From: Salinigranum marinum
GTDB taxonomy: Archaea > Halobacteriota > Halobacteria > Halobacteriales > Haloferacaceae
DNA length: 64,000 nucleotides
NCBI RefSeq assembly: GCF_024228675.1
Contig: NZ_CP100461.1
Location: 3,283,398-3,347,397, forward strand
Direction: 5' to 3'
The notes under the pieces are model-generated. The model was not told the DNA's origin. It did no database searches and saw only the letters and a list, made by a program, of their open reading frames with translations. The position numbers and the translations under genes are program-made. Below are positions 31,768-36,556 of the stretch, piece by piece; positions within the stretch are counted from its first letter, which is position 1; the number at the start of each line of letters is the position of its first letter.

Positions 31768-31965
31768 CTGGCTCACCACTCCGAGAGACGATCCCCGGGT
31801 GGATAGCGACGGACGCCGCGTCTCAGGTCGTGAGAACCGGACGCGTTCCCGACCGACGGTCACCCGAAGCGGCGCGGACCTGAGCCGACTCGTCGGTGCG
31901 GCCGCGGGCCCACGCGGGTCGCGTCGGCGGTACGTTCAGGGGACTGCGCACCGTCTCACCCTCGT

Positions 31966-32127
31966 ATGCTCGAGGAAGTGTACATCGTGACCGTGTCGCT
32001 CAGCGGGGAGACGAACGGGATCGTCGGCGTGACCGAGACGCGCGAGGGTGCCGAACGACTCGCGGACCGAAACTCGCGGTCGAACAGTTTCCTCCGCATC
32101 GACAGCTACCCGATCGAGCGCGTCTGA
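31966..32127 (+). CDS. Small conserved-looking protein, 53 residues
   Basis: MLEEVYIVTVSLSGETNGIV ... REGAERLADRNSRSNSFLRI ... DSYPIERV. Regular beta-alpha-beta pattern (VYIVTVSL; EGAERLADRN; LRIDSYPIE), acidic N terminus and codon use like neighbouring genes argue for a real gene although it is short. No family recognised. Located 74 bases before sufU; they may share a transcript. Confidence 0.65.
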   Translation: MLEEVYIVTVSLSGETNGIVGVTETREGAERLADRNSRSNSFLRIDSYPIERV

Positions 32128-32201
32128 GTCGCGTGCGGGCGAGCGACGCCACCGAGCGCCCGGAATCCTTTTGCGTCGCACTCGCGTACCTCGAATCGAT
32201 C

Positions 32202-32621
32202 ATGGGTATGGGTTCGGACATGTACCGGCAGCAGATCCTTGACCACTACAAGAACCCCCGGAACTACGGGGAGATCGAGGACCCCACGTTCACCCACGAG
32301 GGGGAGAACCCCTCCTGTGGCGACACCATCCGCGTCGATGTGACACTCGAAGACGACGGCGAGACCATCGAGTACGCCGCGTTCAGCGGCGACGGCTGTG
32401 CCATCTCGCAGGCGTCGGCGTCGATGCTCACCTCCCGGCTGCAGGGGATGACGCTCTCGGAGCTGGACGCGCTCGACACCGACGACGTCACGGAGATGCT
32501 CGGGGTCGACATCAGCCCGATGCGGATCAAGTGCGCCGTCCTCGCACGACAGGTCGCCCAGGACGGGGCCCGCATCCACGAGGGCGACCTCGACGTCGAC
32601 CACACCACGACCGAGGAGTAG
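32202..32621 (+). CDS. sufU: Iron-sulfur cluster scaffold SufU (IscU-like)
   Basis: 139 residues. Conserved Cys in ENPSCGDTI, GDGCAISQAS and RIKCAVLARQV, with the Asp in the first motif, form the zinc/cluster site. SufU takes persulfide sulfur from SufS. ATG 32202 or 32208 are equally possible starts. Tail DLDVDHTTTEE is acidic. It converges with the methyltransferase gene with zero spacing. Confidence 0.96.
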   Translation: MGMGSDMYRQQILDHYKNPRNYGEIEDPTFTHEGENPSCGDTIRVDVTLEDDGETIEYAAFSGDGCAISQASASMLTSRLQGMTLSELDALDTDDVTEMLGVDISPMRIKCAVLARQVAQDGARIHEGDLDVDHTTTEE

Positions 32622-33539
32622 TCAGCCGACCCGCCCGTAGAGGTCGAGGTTCCGTGCGACGAAGTGCAGGCGGTTTTCCTCCCGTTCTCGCCGTCTGGTT
32701 TCGAGCCACGCGTCGATCGTCTCGGGTGCGACGTGCCCGTCGACCGCGTCGGCGACCGTATCGACGACGACCCGCAGGAAGTACGACTCGTCGGCCGGGT
32801 ACGCGCCGCCGAGCGGCGAGACGACCCAGTCCGACCCGCCGACGGCGTCGAGGCCGACGCCGAGTTCGGGGAGGAGGGTGAGCAGCCGCCGCCCGGCGGT
32901 CGCGCCGAGCCGCTCACCCGAATCGTCGACCATCGTCGCGTGGTACGCGTCGACGACGGCCCCGTCGTCGGGGTGCGACGGGGCGAACGCCGTGCCGCCG
33001 TCGAACGTGATGGGGAGGTAGACGCCGCCACGGTCGACGCCCGAGACGAGCCGTTCGACCCCTCCGGGCGTGAGCAGATCCGCGAACGCCTGCGCGACGA
33101 TGAACTCCCACGTCCCGCGGGCGGCGACGCCGAGCGCGTCGCCGGCGACGAGATGGACGTCGATGCGGGCCGGGCCACGCAGACGGAGTGTGGCGACGTG
33201 GGTGAACTCCGGGTTGTCGAGCGAGAACCCCAGATCGGCCGCGGCCGGATCGACGACCCGCGCCTCGAAGCCGACGTCCTGGGCCCGCGCGAGGAGCAGT
33301 TCGCACCCGGTCGCGAGCAGGTCGGCGTCGGTGTCGACGGCGACGTACGTGCAGTCGGGAACGTCGTCCCACCCGAGGAGGCGGCGGCAGAAGGCGGCCG
33401 TGCCTGCGCCGGCTTCGAGGACGCGCGGCGACGCGCTCGTCCGGAGGTCCTCGCGGACGCGGTCGAGCACCCGCCGATCGAGCGCCCGGTCGTCGACCGT
33501 CTCCTTCGCCGAGAGATACTGCTGGAAATCGCCTTTCAT
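32622..33539 (-). CDS. Class I SAM-dependent methyltransferase
   Basis: 305 residues. VLEAGAGTAAFCRRLLGW is the SAM-binding loop, YVAVDTDADLL the following acidic motif, and FIVAQAFADLLTPGGVERLV the post-motif typical of small-molecule methyltransferases. ATG 33539 overlaps the glycosyltransferase stop (ATGA), so it is the last gene of a coupled PTPS-GT-methyltransferase operon. Substrate unknown; context suggests a glycosylated pterin-type metabolite. Confidence 0.88.
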   Translation of the reverse strand: MKGDFQQYLSAKETVDDRALDRRVLDRVREDLRTSASPRVLEAGAGTAAFCRRLLGWDDVPDCTYVAVDTDADLLATGCELLLARAQDVGFEARVVDPAAADLGFSLDNPEFTHVATLRLRGPARIDVHLVAGDALGVAARGTWEFIVAQAFADLLTPGGVERLVSGVDRGGVYLPITFDGGTAFAPSHPDDGAVVDAYHATMVDDSGERLGATAGRRLLTLLPELGVGLDAVGGSDWVVSPLGGAYPADESYFLRVVVDTVADAVDGHVAPETIDAWLETRRREREENRLHFVARNLDLYGRVG

Positions 33540-34645
33540 TCCGCCACCACCGCCGACTGGCGGTCGGCCTGGCCGTCGACGACGCCCGAGAGGAACGCCC
33601 GGACCCGCGCGACCGTCTCCGGCCACGGCGGATGTGCCTGGTGCCGCTCCAGCGCCGCCCGCCCCATCCGCGCGAGACGGTCCCGGTCGGACGCGAGCGT
33701 CGACAGCGCCGCGTAGACGGCACCGACGCCGTCTGGCGGCACGAGGACGCCCGTCTCGCCGTGGGTGACGAGGTCGGTCGCGCCGCCCGAGTGGGTCACC
33801 ACCGCGGGGAGCCCGAAGCCCATCCCTTCGAGGGCGGCGATGCCGAACCCCTCGTGAGCGGAGGGGAGCGCGAGGACGTGGCTCCGGCGGAGCACCCCGG
33901 CGAGTTCGCCGGTCGAGAGGGGTCCCGTCAGCGTCACGCGCTCTGTGACCCCTCGACGGCGACAGCGCCGGCGGACCCGATCGGCGTACGTGGCGTCGGG
34001 CTGGGGTCCGACGAGCGTGGCTGTCCACTCTCCCTCCAGCCCCGACAGCGCGTCGACGAGCGCGAGCGGTCGTTTCCGAGGCAGGACCGACCCGACGAAG
34101 ACGACGCGAAAGGGGTCGGCTGCGGCGCGGTCGTCGATCTCAGCGGCGGCGACGTCGGGATCGAACTGGTCGTCGGTCGGCGGCGCGACGACTGTCGGCA
34201 CGCCGGTCGGTCCATCGGCGCTGCCCGGCCCGAGGGCAGTCGAGACCAGTTCGCGGACCGAGCGGGCGGTCGCCGAACTCGTACAGACCGCGGCGTCGAC
34301 GCGGGAGAGAAACCGCCGTTCGAGCGCCCGGGCCAACGGCGCGTCGGCGCGCCCCTCGTCGCAACGGAGATGATGGACGAGCGCGACCACGGGCGTCTCC
34401 GCCTCCAGGGCAACGAACGTCGGGTGGGCGAGTTCGTCGACGACGACCACGTCCGTACCCGACGCGAACCGCGCGAGCGGCGTCCGGGGGGCGTCGGCGA
34501 GGCCGAACGGGTAGCGCCGCCAGGGCACCGAGTGGACGGTGACCTCGTCGCCCGCGTCGCGGAGCGAGGCGACGAGCCGGCGGTCGTACCGAAAGCCACC
34601 CGAGGTGGTGTCGAAGTCGCCCGGCACGACGCATGCCACCCGCAT
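33536..34645 (-). CDS. Family 4 glycosyltransferase
   Basis: 369 residues, GT-B fold. FRVVFVGSVLPRKRPLALVDAL and LPSAHEGFGIAALEGMGFGLPAVVTHSGG (the EGFG...E nucleotide-sugar site) are clear GT4 motifs. No membrane segment. Start ATG 34645 directly abuts the PTPS-like stop; the stop overlaps the methyltransferase start. A soluble enzyme that adds a sugar to an unknown acceptor. Confidence 0.93.
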   Translation of the reverse strand: MRVACVVPGDFDTTSGGFRYDRRLVASLRDAGDEVTVHSVPWRRYPFGLADAPRTPLARFASGTDVVVVDELAHPTFVALEAETPVVALVHHLRCDEGRADAPLARALERRFLSRVDAAVCTSSATARSVRELVSTALGPGSADGPTGVPTVVAPPTDDQFDPDVAAAEIDDRAAADPFRVVFVGSVLPRKRPLALVDALSGLEGEWTATLVGPQPDATYADRVRRRCRRRGVTERVTLTGPLSTGELAGVLRRSHVLALPSAHEGFGIAALEGMGFGLPAVVTHSGGATDLVTHGETGVLVPPDGVGAVYAALSTLASDRDRLARMGRAALERHQAHPPWPETVARVRAFLSGVVDGQADRQSAVVAE

Positions 34646-35029
34646 CTACGAGGTGGGGGCGGCGGCGTACGCGGCGTTGGCGACGTCGTCCTCCCAGACG
34701 GTGACGGTGAGCCGGTCGACCCCGTCCGTCGAGACCGCCCCGGCGAACCGCTCGTGGACGACGCGGGCGAAGCGCTCGACGCTCGGGTTGTACCCCTCGA
34801 ACTCCGGGAGGGAGTTGAGCGTCTCGTCGGCGTAGCGCGCCTCGATCGTGTCGAGGGCCGCCTCCACCTCGTCGATGTCGACGAGGTAGTCGTACTCGTT
34901 CAGCTCCTCGCCCGCGAGTTCGACCTCCAGCCGGAAGTGGTGTGAGTGCAACTCCCCTTCCGGGCCGGGGTCGGGGACGGTGAGGAAGTGCTGGGCGATG
35001 AGCGGACGGACGACCGTGACGGTGTACAT
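34646..35029 (-). CDS. 6-pyruvoyl-tetrahydropterin synthase / QueD-like protein
   Basis: 127 residues from ATG 35029; CCTTTACG at ~35052-35058 (minus) gives a leaderless start. Zinc-binding histidines are present in AQHFL and in ELHSHHFRLEVEL; PSVERFARVVHERF follows. The family converts dihydroneopterin triphosphate to 6-carboxy- or 6-pyruvoyl-tetrahydropterin. The Cys of canonical QueD/PTPS is not visible, so its chemistry may be altered. Heads an operon with a glycosyltransferase and a methyltransferase, unlike queuosine/archaeosine QueD genes. Confidence 0.88.
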   Translation of the reverse strand: MYTVTVVRPLIAQHFLTVPDPGPEGELHSHHFRLEVELAGEELNEYDYLVDIDEVEAALDTIEARYADETLNSLPEFEGYNPSVERFARVVHERFAGAVSTDGVDRLTVTVWEDDVANAAYAAAPTS

Positions 35030-35141
35030 GCGCAGGCGGTCGGTGGCGGGGACCGTAAAGGTGCGCTCGCGGCGGCGTCCACGGAACCCGGGACGTGAGA
35101 ACCGAACCAACGGTTATGCTCGCCCGTGACCAAACGGTACC

Positions 35142-35504
35142 ATGGGGGGAGAGACGGAGACCCGATCGGGAGGAAGAACGTGGAGACAGCGTCGACAGAC
35201 CGCACTGGAAGCGATCCCGCCGGTCGAGCGATCGGTCGAAGACGGCGTGCTCCGCGTCACGCGACGGTTCCGCGGACTCACTGTCGAACAGGCGCTGGGG
35301 TATCTCGAACACCTCGGCGGCGAGCGAACCGGGCCGGCGTCGGTCGAGGGTGACGGCTGGCGGGGCCGGCTCTCGACTCGGAAAGTCCCTGTCGGCCCGT
35401 CATACCGGCTCACCGAAGTGACGGTGACGTGGACCGGCCGCGAGGAGATCGTCGACCCGCTCGTCCTGCAGTTCCGGCTCAAGACGTTCCGCGCGCCGGG
35501 CTGA
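35142..35504 (+). CDS. Haloarchaeal protein of unknown function
   Basis: 120 residues. Regular alpha/beta pattern: RRFRGLTVEQALGYLEHLGG, GDGWRGRLSTRKVPVGPSYRLTEVTVTWTG, DPLVLQFRLKTFRAPG. No family recognised. TTATGC at ~35113 lies ~28 nt before ATG 35142, so it shares a divergent promoter region with the PTPS operon and converges with the dehydrogenase gene eight bases away. Its place inside the cluster suggests involvement. Confidence 0.8.
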   Translation: MGGETETRSGGRTWRQRRQTALEAIPPVERSVEDGVLRVTRRFRGLTVEQALGYLEHLGGERTGPASVEGDGWRGRLSTRKVPVGPSYRLTEVTVTWTGREEIVDPLVLQFRLKTFRAPG

Positions 35505-35512
35505 GCGGATTT

Positions 35513-36556
35513 TTAATACTCTAAGACGACCTGGAGCGTCTCTTCGGGCGACTGATCGAGCAGTTCGTACGCCCGGGGTGCCTCCTCGACTGGCAGTCGG
35601 TGTGTCACGAGTTCCGAGGGAGAGAGCTCCGACAGCAGGTCGAGCACGAGCCCCATCCGTCGTTCCTTGTCCCATCGGTCCGCGTGAGCGGGGTCGATCC
35701 GCGAGACCTGGCTGGCCTGCAGACGGATGTGGCTCCGGTGAAAGCGTCCGCCGAGATCGAGCGTCGCGGGTTTGGAGCCGTACCACGAGCCGACGACGAC
35801 GCGGCCGTCGTCGCCGGTCGTGTCGATCGCCGCGTCGAGCGCCGCCGGGTTCCCCGACACCTCGTAGGAGAGGTCGGCGCGGCGGTCGCCCGCCTCGAAC
35901 GCCTCGCCCGCGGCGTCGGGCGAGAGGCTCGCGTCGGCACCGCGCGCCCGCGAACGCTCCCGGCGGGCGGGGTAGTGGTCGAACGTGACCAGTCGGTCGA
36001 GGGGGAACCGCGAGAGCATCGCGGTCGTGAGGAGACCGACGACGCCCTGCCCGAACACCGCCACGCGCTCGCCGACGCGCGGACGGCCGTCCATGGCGAG
36101 GCTCACGGCGGTCTCGGCCATCGCCAGGAGGACGGCGTCCTCGTCGTCGACGCCGGGCGGGAGCCGGACGAGCGCCTCGGGCGTGACGCAGAAGTGACTG
36201 GCGTGGGGGTGGAAGGCGAAGACGCGCTGGCCGACCCACTCGTCGTCGACGTCGGAGCCGGTGGCCGTGACCGTGCCGACGGCGGCGTACCCGTACGAGA
36301 GCGGGTAGGTGGCGGCGCGGTCGAGCGAGTCGATGGTCTCGTCGAGCCGGACGTCGTCGGGGACCTGATCCCGGTAGACGAGGAGTTCGGTCCCCGGGCT
36401 GATCGCGGACAGCGACGCCTCGACCTGCACCTCGCCGGCCCCGGGCGTCTCGATCGGCATCCGAGCGACTTCGGCGTGGTGTGGCGCGACGAACCGAACC
36501 TGCCGCCCCACGTGGTCGCTCCCGGCACCGGCCTCGGTTCCGCTCTCGGCGGTCAC
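35513..36556 (-). CDS. MDR-family dehydrogenase, BchC-like
   Basis: 347 residues from GTG 36556. N-terminal GroES-like part (SAISPGTELLVYRDQVPDD, YPLSYGYAAVGTVTATG) and Rossmann part with GERVAVFGQGVVGLLTTAML. The wording SPGTELLVYRG..P and YGYAxxG is shared with the BchC bacteriochlorophyllide dehydrogenase branch. The usual N-terminal catalytic-zinc Cys/GHE set of alcohol dehydrogenases is missing. Upstream member of the PTPS-GT-methyltransferase neighbourhood on the same strand, separated by one opposite gene. Longer in-frame starts add Arg-rich sequence and were not used. Confidence 0.88.
   Translation of the reverse strand: MTAESGTEAGAGSDHVGRQVRFVAPHHAEVARMPIETPGAGEVQVEASLSAISPGTELLVYRDQVPDDVRLDETIDSLDRAATYPLSYGYAAVGTVTATGSDVDDEWVGQRVFAFHPHASHFCVTPEALVRLPPGVDDEDAVLLAMAETAVSLAMDGRPRVGERVAVFGQGVVGLLTTAMLSRFPLDRLVTFDHYPARRERSRARGADASLSPDAAGEAFEAGDRRADLSYEVSGNPAALDAAIDTTGDDGRVVVGSWYGSKPATLDLGGRFHRSHIRLQASQVSRIDPAHADRWDKERRMGLVLDLLSELSPSELVTHRLPVEEAPRAYELLDQSPEETLQVVLEY

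Follow-up and report, generated by a model that had tools for sequence, protein, structure and literature searches.

In a 64,000-nucleotide stretch of the 4.9-Mb Salinigranum marinum genome (G000; contig NZ_CP100461.1, here C1, positions 3,283,398 to 3,347,397; hereafter the window), four minus-strand genes for a dehydrogenase, a T-fold protein of the PTPS/QueD superfamily, a glycosyltransferase (GT) and a methyltransferase belong to one conserved biosynthetic unit and constitute the core of an uncharacterised pathway of wide distribution. We consider it probable, at about 0.6, that this four-gene core starts from GTP and, via the first riboflavin-type intermediates, produces a small molecule that is both glycosylated and methylated. 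The five open reading frames (ORFs) of the locus were confirmed in the sequence where the original prediction had placed them:

32622-33539, minus strand: class I S-adenosylmethionine (SAM) methyltransferase-like protein; overlaps the GT gene by 4 bases
33536-34645, minus strand: GT4-type glycosyltransferase; PF00534 and an EX7E motif (E265, E273)
34646-35029, minus strand, ATG start: PTPS/QueD-superfamily T-fold protein with a variant active site; PF01242
35142-35504, plus strand: 120-residue ORF of a common haloarchaeal family, judged to lie outside the unit
35513-36556, minus strand, GTG start: BchC-like dehydrogenase of the medium-chain dehydrogenase/reductase (MDR) superfamily, first gene of the core; ADH_zinc_N

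Inspection of both junctions bore out the tight packing described earlier, with a gap of 0 between the PTPS and GT genes and the 4-base overlap between the GT and methyltransferase genes. The core order, dehydrogenase-PTPS-GT-methyltransferase, recurs in haloarchaea, other euryarchaea, alphaproteobacteria and Streptomyces. A relative of the PTPS-like protein was found in all four genomes of the genus and in 83 of 146 genomes of the order. The full core stood in order in 10 of the 20 haloarchaeal neighbourhoods fetched, the remainder being partial, rearranged or ended by contig edges, and a dehydrogenase orthologue was present in 18 of the 20. Plasmid-borne copies were identified in Haloarcula, Halobellus, Haladaptatus, Natronorubrum and Halomicrococcus. 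Among 240 alphaproteobacteria 30 had the PTPS gene, and in a set of 23 bacterial loci, which includes one Streptomyces plasmid, the dehydrogenase was found in all and the GT and methyltransferase in 22, with the core order kept. A search with the single methyltransferase sequence returned two loci, both of them alphaproteobacterial metagenome-assembled genomes (MAGs) with the same core. Recurrence of one gene order in both archaea and bacteria puts the linkage far beyond chance, and lack of conservation, one of the two outcomes named as refuting the original prediction, does not apply.

The earlier proposal of a five-gene unit held for the four minus-strand genes, which belong together, but not for the 120-residue ORF, which is incidental. 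This ORF was missing in all 20 haloarchaeal neighbourhoods and in seven plasmid-borne copies, and also at the cluster in three genomes of the same genus, in two of which the dehydrogenase was the next cluster gene upstream of PTPS with no such ORF between them. Among the copies examined, only that of this species has the ORF between dehydrogenase and PTPS. Relatives occurred in 42 of 60 related genomes, elsewhere in the genome and unlinked to the cluster, often with paralogues. The absence at other copies and the scatter of its relatives ruled it out as a member of the unit. The family had no match in Pfam or NCBIfam, and a sigma-70 promoter scan of the locus, which does not cover archaeal promoters, found none. 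On the other flank a NifU/SufU-like iron-sulfur scaffold gene (window 31896-32621, plus strand) is convergent with the methyltransferase gene and is probably unrelated.

Pfam and NCBIfam profiles supported the family labels given earlier to the PTPS-like protein, the GT and the BchC-like dehydrogenase. The PTPS-like protein matched PF01242 (E 6.7e-24; 84.6 bits against a 22.4-bit cut-off) and fell below the cut-off of the QueD equivalog TIGR03367 (43.4 bits against 89.25). Sequence and fold searches of the PDB both gave SCO6650 (3d7j) as the best match, a protein that is not known to have PTPS activity; the structure model, of moderate confidence (mean pLDDT, the predicted local distance difference test score, of 69), matched both 3d7j and QueD. 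Alignment of the catalytic residues, a check suggested with the original prediction, showed that the three metal-binding histidines (His14, His28 and His30) and the ring-binding Glu113 are retained and that Glu24 replaces the catalytic cysteine, to give ExxxHSH. The protein reads PGPEG rather than the FGPAQ of PTPS-IV, differs from the CxxxHGH of QueD/PTPS-I, and contains no cysteine at all, and thus no CxxxxxHGH of PTPS-II; relative to the ExxHGH of PTPS-III its Glu24 lies one residue earlier and HSH stands instead of HGH.

Across 39 archaeal and bacterial cluster PTPS sequences, His14, Gly79, Glu85 and Glu113 were invariant. The archaeal copies retain His28 and His30, except for one in which the first histidine of the pair is lost (L034), and have glutamate at the position of the QueD catalytic cysteine, or aspartate in L053. 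The bacterial copies read FGPAQ-LHGA (FGPAR in one), having lost both the third histidine and the Glu/Cys residue. Other euryarchaeal copies, with the FGPET signature at three loci, read FGPET-LHGH or LHKH and lie between the haloarchaeal and bacterial forms. In a midpoint-rooted tree with few outgroups (a misframed row from the archaeal locus L130 was disregarded), the cluster proteins stood apart from the three QueD sequences included (99/89) and the bacterial proteins apart from the archaeal ones (100/99). In two separate records of Haloarcula marismortui (NC_006395.1, ~104289-104632; L059) the PTPS gene is split over two frames and has no annotated coding sequence, whereas the frame is intact in H. 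sinaiiensis; this pair offers a ready natural comparison.

The dehydrogenase matched PF00107 (ADH_zinc_N, E 8.8e-9), and its best NCBIfam model was BchC (TIGR01202), at 78.5 bits against a 291-bit cut-off. It has many residues in common between archaeal and bacterial copies and lacks the usual catalytic zinc ligands, the Cys and GHE stretches of zinc alcohol dehydrogenases reading SAISPGTE and YGYAAVG, respectively. The GT matched PF00534 (Glycos_transf_1, E 6.6e-27), and the EX7E residues E265 and E273 are conserved in archaeal and bacterial copies. The methyltransferase label stood in part: the Pfam methyltransferase domain scored below its cut-off (17.3 against 30 bits), but a class I SAM methyltransferase is still favored because the protein carries the nucleotide-binding E-x-G-x-G-T motif, and its orthologues on plasmids bear the annotation class I SAM-dependent methyltransferase. 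A FAPSHPDD motif is common to the window and alphaproteobacterial methyltransferases. The structure model of this protein, based on a three-row alignment, was too poor to be used (mean pLDDT 40).

The clue to the precursor came from the neighbors of the core. Of the 83 PTPS-positive haloarchaea, 33 had a gene for GTP cyclohydrolase (GCH) III (PF05165) within 8 kb of PTPS, where random placement (~0.5% per genome) would give less than one genome, although related genomes are not independent. Two GCH III copies were present in 13 genomes, of which 12 had the cluster, always with one of the two copies located at it. In Haloarcula pelagica a single run comprises genes for a CDP-alcohol phosphotransferase, a "GTP cyclohydrolase IIa" (GCH III), the dehydrogenase, PTPS and the methyltransferase. 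In two archaea outside the order the gene upstream of the dehydrogenase encodes GCH II: L125 has GCH II, dehydrogenase, PTPS and GT, and L130 (genome G430) has methyltransferase, GCH II, dehydrogenase, PTPS and GT in a run with a creatininase gene nearby. Bacterial PTPS-IV neighborhoods were previously linked to PF00925 (GCH II) and RibD_C (PF01872) (PMC5445326); neither adjoins the window genes, and GCH III is found in relatives instead. Among the 23 bacterial loci, which span ~16 kb and in which only the largest neighbor families were identified, the counts were at least 19 for RibD_C, 10 for CDP-alcohol phosphotransferase, 9 for YceI, 8 for GCH II and 6 for creatininase.

GCH II enzymes with a methionine at a position occupied by tyrosine in the alphaproteobacterial enzymes release formamidopyrimidine (FAPy). 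The Streptomyces GCH II is of this Met type, and a FAPy product would fit its creatininase neighbor. The Met-type GCH II adjoining SCO6650 also gives FAPy. The correlation is not clean, as two alphaproteobacterial loci have a Tyr-type GCH II together with creatininase. The creatininase-family protein BrbF of Sinorhizobium deformylates the FAPy intermediate (PMC9478397). That unrelated cyclohydrolases for the same step occupy the same position is the strongest argument for the precursor, and the recurrence of GCH III or GCH II, RibD_C and creatininase/formamidase points with fair confidence to a precursor of the diaminopyrimidine kind used for riboflavin. The genome of the window has three creatininase genes, and its 437-kb contig C2 carries orthologues of the cluster-associated CDP-alcohol phosphotransferase and of a Gfo/Idh-aldo/keto reductase fusion.

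Other families were also observed at these loci. A DGNHRATA-motif family of 230-270 residues, with no Pfam match for the one copy tested, lies next to either GCH III or the dehydrogenase gene at four clusters in haloarchaea (L038:5202-5897, L042:5144-5947, L043 and L044). A family of ~300 residues upstream of the dehydrogenase (L035:9656-10555, L037, L039 and L045) likewise had no Pfam match and has a phosphatase/sulfatase-like look, and some bacterial clusters contain a sulfatase-domain gene.

Several observations weigh against a product derived from riboflavin-type intermediates. GCH III was not near PTPS in 48 of the 83 genomes, that of the window among them; because its single GCH III gene lies ~2.1 Mb from the cluster, on contig C1, the GCH III argument depends on related genomes. 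Riboflavin synthesis, too, draws on GCH III, and the haloarchaeal clusters yielded no RibD_C. The GT is missing in several haloarchaea (L045-L047), and one haloarchaeon (L053) has PTPS without the rest of the cluster. In addition, since the bacterial PTPS-IV proteins have lost the third histidine and the Glu/Cys residue, the T-fold protein may differ in chemistry between the groups, or have none.

The methylated, glycosylated pterin of the original prediction would correspond to a different entry, the usual pterin route, in which the PTPS-like protein would act on dihydroneopterin triphosphate made by GCH I and the resulting pterin would receive the sugar and the methyl group. The retained PTPS fold, the three histidines and the ring-anchoring glutamate are compatible with such a reaction, a glutamate in place of the cysteine alters product choice on this substrate in malarial PTPS (PMC2229834), and other FolE/QueD genes are present in the genome of the window. 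We nevertheless regard this route as unlikely and entry via GCH I as probably wrong: the recurrent cyclohydrolase partners are GCH III or GCH II, and a GCH I route would have no use for the RibD_C and creatininase/formamidase neighbors. A glycosylated, methylated product derived from GTP was itself a fair guess from a T-fold protein, a GT and a methyltransferase in a conserved unit. The same riboflavin-type neighbors would also suit an extra, regulated supply or branch of riboflavin or flavin, leading to a glycosylated, methylated flavin or lumazine rather than a pterin or free pyrimidine. This seems rather improbable, as the known riboflavin pathway has no role for a T-fold protein and neither lumazine synthase nor riboflavin synthase was noticed among the recurrent neighbors, of which only the largest families were identified.

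A role in coenzyme F420 synthesis was assigned to PTPS-IV in the literature, without data and citing unpublished work (PMC5041015). F420 and riboflavin have a pyrimidine precursor in common, and some cluster-positive alphaproteobacteria possess a complete CofC/D/E set. The distributions of PTPS and CofD do not match in either group, and on these grounds the F420 role was rejected as very unlikely. CofD was found in 141 of 146 haloarchaeal genomes (122 of the 122 good ones) against 83 for PTPS, and among the 240 alphaproteobacteria 30 had PTPS, 39 had CofD and only seven had both (p = 0.29), leaving 23 with the cluster and no CofD; some CofD genes could be missing from incomplete MAGs, but this would not explain the pattern as a whole. 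This verdict covers the proteins sampled here, and PMC5041015 may have meant another archaeal subgroup. QueD function of the PTPS-like protein had been put forward as the other outcome that would overturn the original prediction. That this protein serves as an additional QueD for archaeosine/preQ0 is extremely unlikely, even though NCBI names orthologues 6-carboxytetrahydropterin synthase. The protein lacks the catalytic cysteine, scores under the QueD cut-off and falls in a clade separate from the three QueD sequences of the midpoint-rooted tree; no QueC or QueE neighbor was found at the cluster, and the same genome has two canonical QueD genes (CxxxHGH), each adjoining QueE. The QueD paralogue was rejected on motif, score, neighbors and these two canonical copies. 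One of the two QueD-QueE pairs is on C1 (L002), and the second, together with a FolE-type GTP cyclohydrolase, is on contig C4 (L003, G000:C4:114081-114431 with flanks); the C4 set is a duplicate preQ0-type pathway, perhaps for DNA modification. The haloarchaeal plasmid records L058 and L060-L064 also give the cluster protein the NCBI name 6-carboxytetrahydropterin synthase (queuosine), and this QueD-type naming of archaeal cluster proteins is likely a systematic misannotation.

A pathway starting from riboflavin-type intermediates could run as follows. In haloarchaea GCH III (ArfA) would open GTP to FAPy, while in bacteria and some archaea GCH II would convert GTP to FAPy or the diaminopyrimidine. 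Formate would then be removed by a creatininase-family formamidase of the ArfB/BrbF type, an activity published for the homologous family, and in bacteria a RibD_C reductase would, in a third step, convert the ribosyl to a ribityl chain. The PTPS-like T-fold protein would next hold the 2-amino-4-oxo ring through Glu113 and, in archaea, its three-histidine metal site and Glu24 would rearrange, cleave or cyclise the side chain, possibly to a pterin. The zinc-less MDR dehydrogenase would subsequently oxidise or reduce a hydroxyl or carbonyl of the side chain, the GT4 enzyme would add a sugar and the methyltransferase a methyl group; in some species a CDP-alcohol phosphotransferase would perhaps tether the product to lipid. 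We infer the order of these reactions, the substrates of the last four steps and the identity of the end product, which would be a glycosylated, methylated pyrimidine or pteridine. More tentatively, and at somewhat less than even odds, we speculate that this is an undescribed GTP-derived molecule, perhaps lipid-anchored where the CDP-alcohol phosphotransferase occurs, for which archaea and bacteria use a single homologous operon fed by unrelated cyclohydrolases (GCH III or GCH II), and that the archaeal T-fold enzyme works with a new ExxxHSH site.

The bacterial PTPS-IV proteins had already been grouped and their neighbors noted, with the pathway unassigned. With the same core operon found in haloarchaea and tied there to GCH III, which forms FAPy, the precursor can be narrowed to the pyrimidine branch of riboflavin type, and the distribution of the core argues against the unpublished F420 assignment. 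Its occurrence in haloarchaea makes the product findable in culturable organisms.

Compared with known systems, the cluster protein has the T-fold, three histidines and ring-binding glutamate of QueD/PTPS-I but differs in its motif (ExxxHSH against CxxxHGH), its neighbors and its separate clade. Like PTPS-III, which has ExxHGH, provides a folate bypass and includes malarial PTPS, it has glutamate in place of the catalytic cysteine; however, this glutamate lies four residues rather than three before the histidine pair, at the PTPS-I cysteine position, the pair reads HSH, and the cluster has no adjacent folate genes. BchC is the best curated model for the dehydrogenase, but the score is far under its cut-off and there is no chlorophyll context at the cluster. 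The enzyme families of archaeal riboflavin entry (ArfA/GCH III, formamidase and RibD_C) recur beside the cluster, and second GCH III copies occur almost only in cluster-bearing genomes, whereas a T-fold protein, a GT, a methyltransferase and an MDR dehydrogenase have no part in riboflavin synthesis. The bacterial PTPS-IV unit (SCO6650, 3d7j) has the same four-gene core in the same order in alphaproteobacteria and Streptomyces, with all four proteins homologous, and its loci have the GCH II and RibD_C neighbors as published (PMC5445326). In contrast, the haloarchaeal proteins have PGPEG rather than FGPAQ and keep the third histidine and a glutamate at the cysteine position, and their cyclohydrolase is usually the unrelated GCH III. 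The FGPET proteins of other archaea (L126-L129) look intermediate, and the archaeal core, although related to the bacterial PTPS-IV unit, is not the same.

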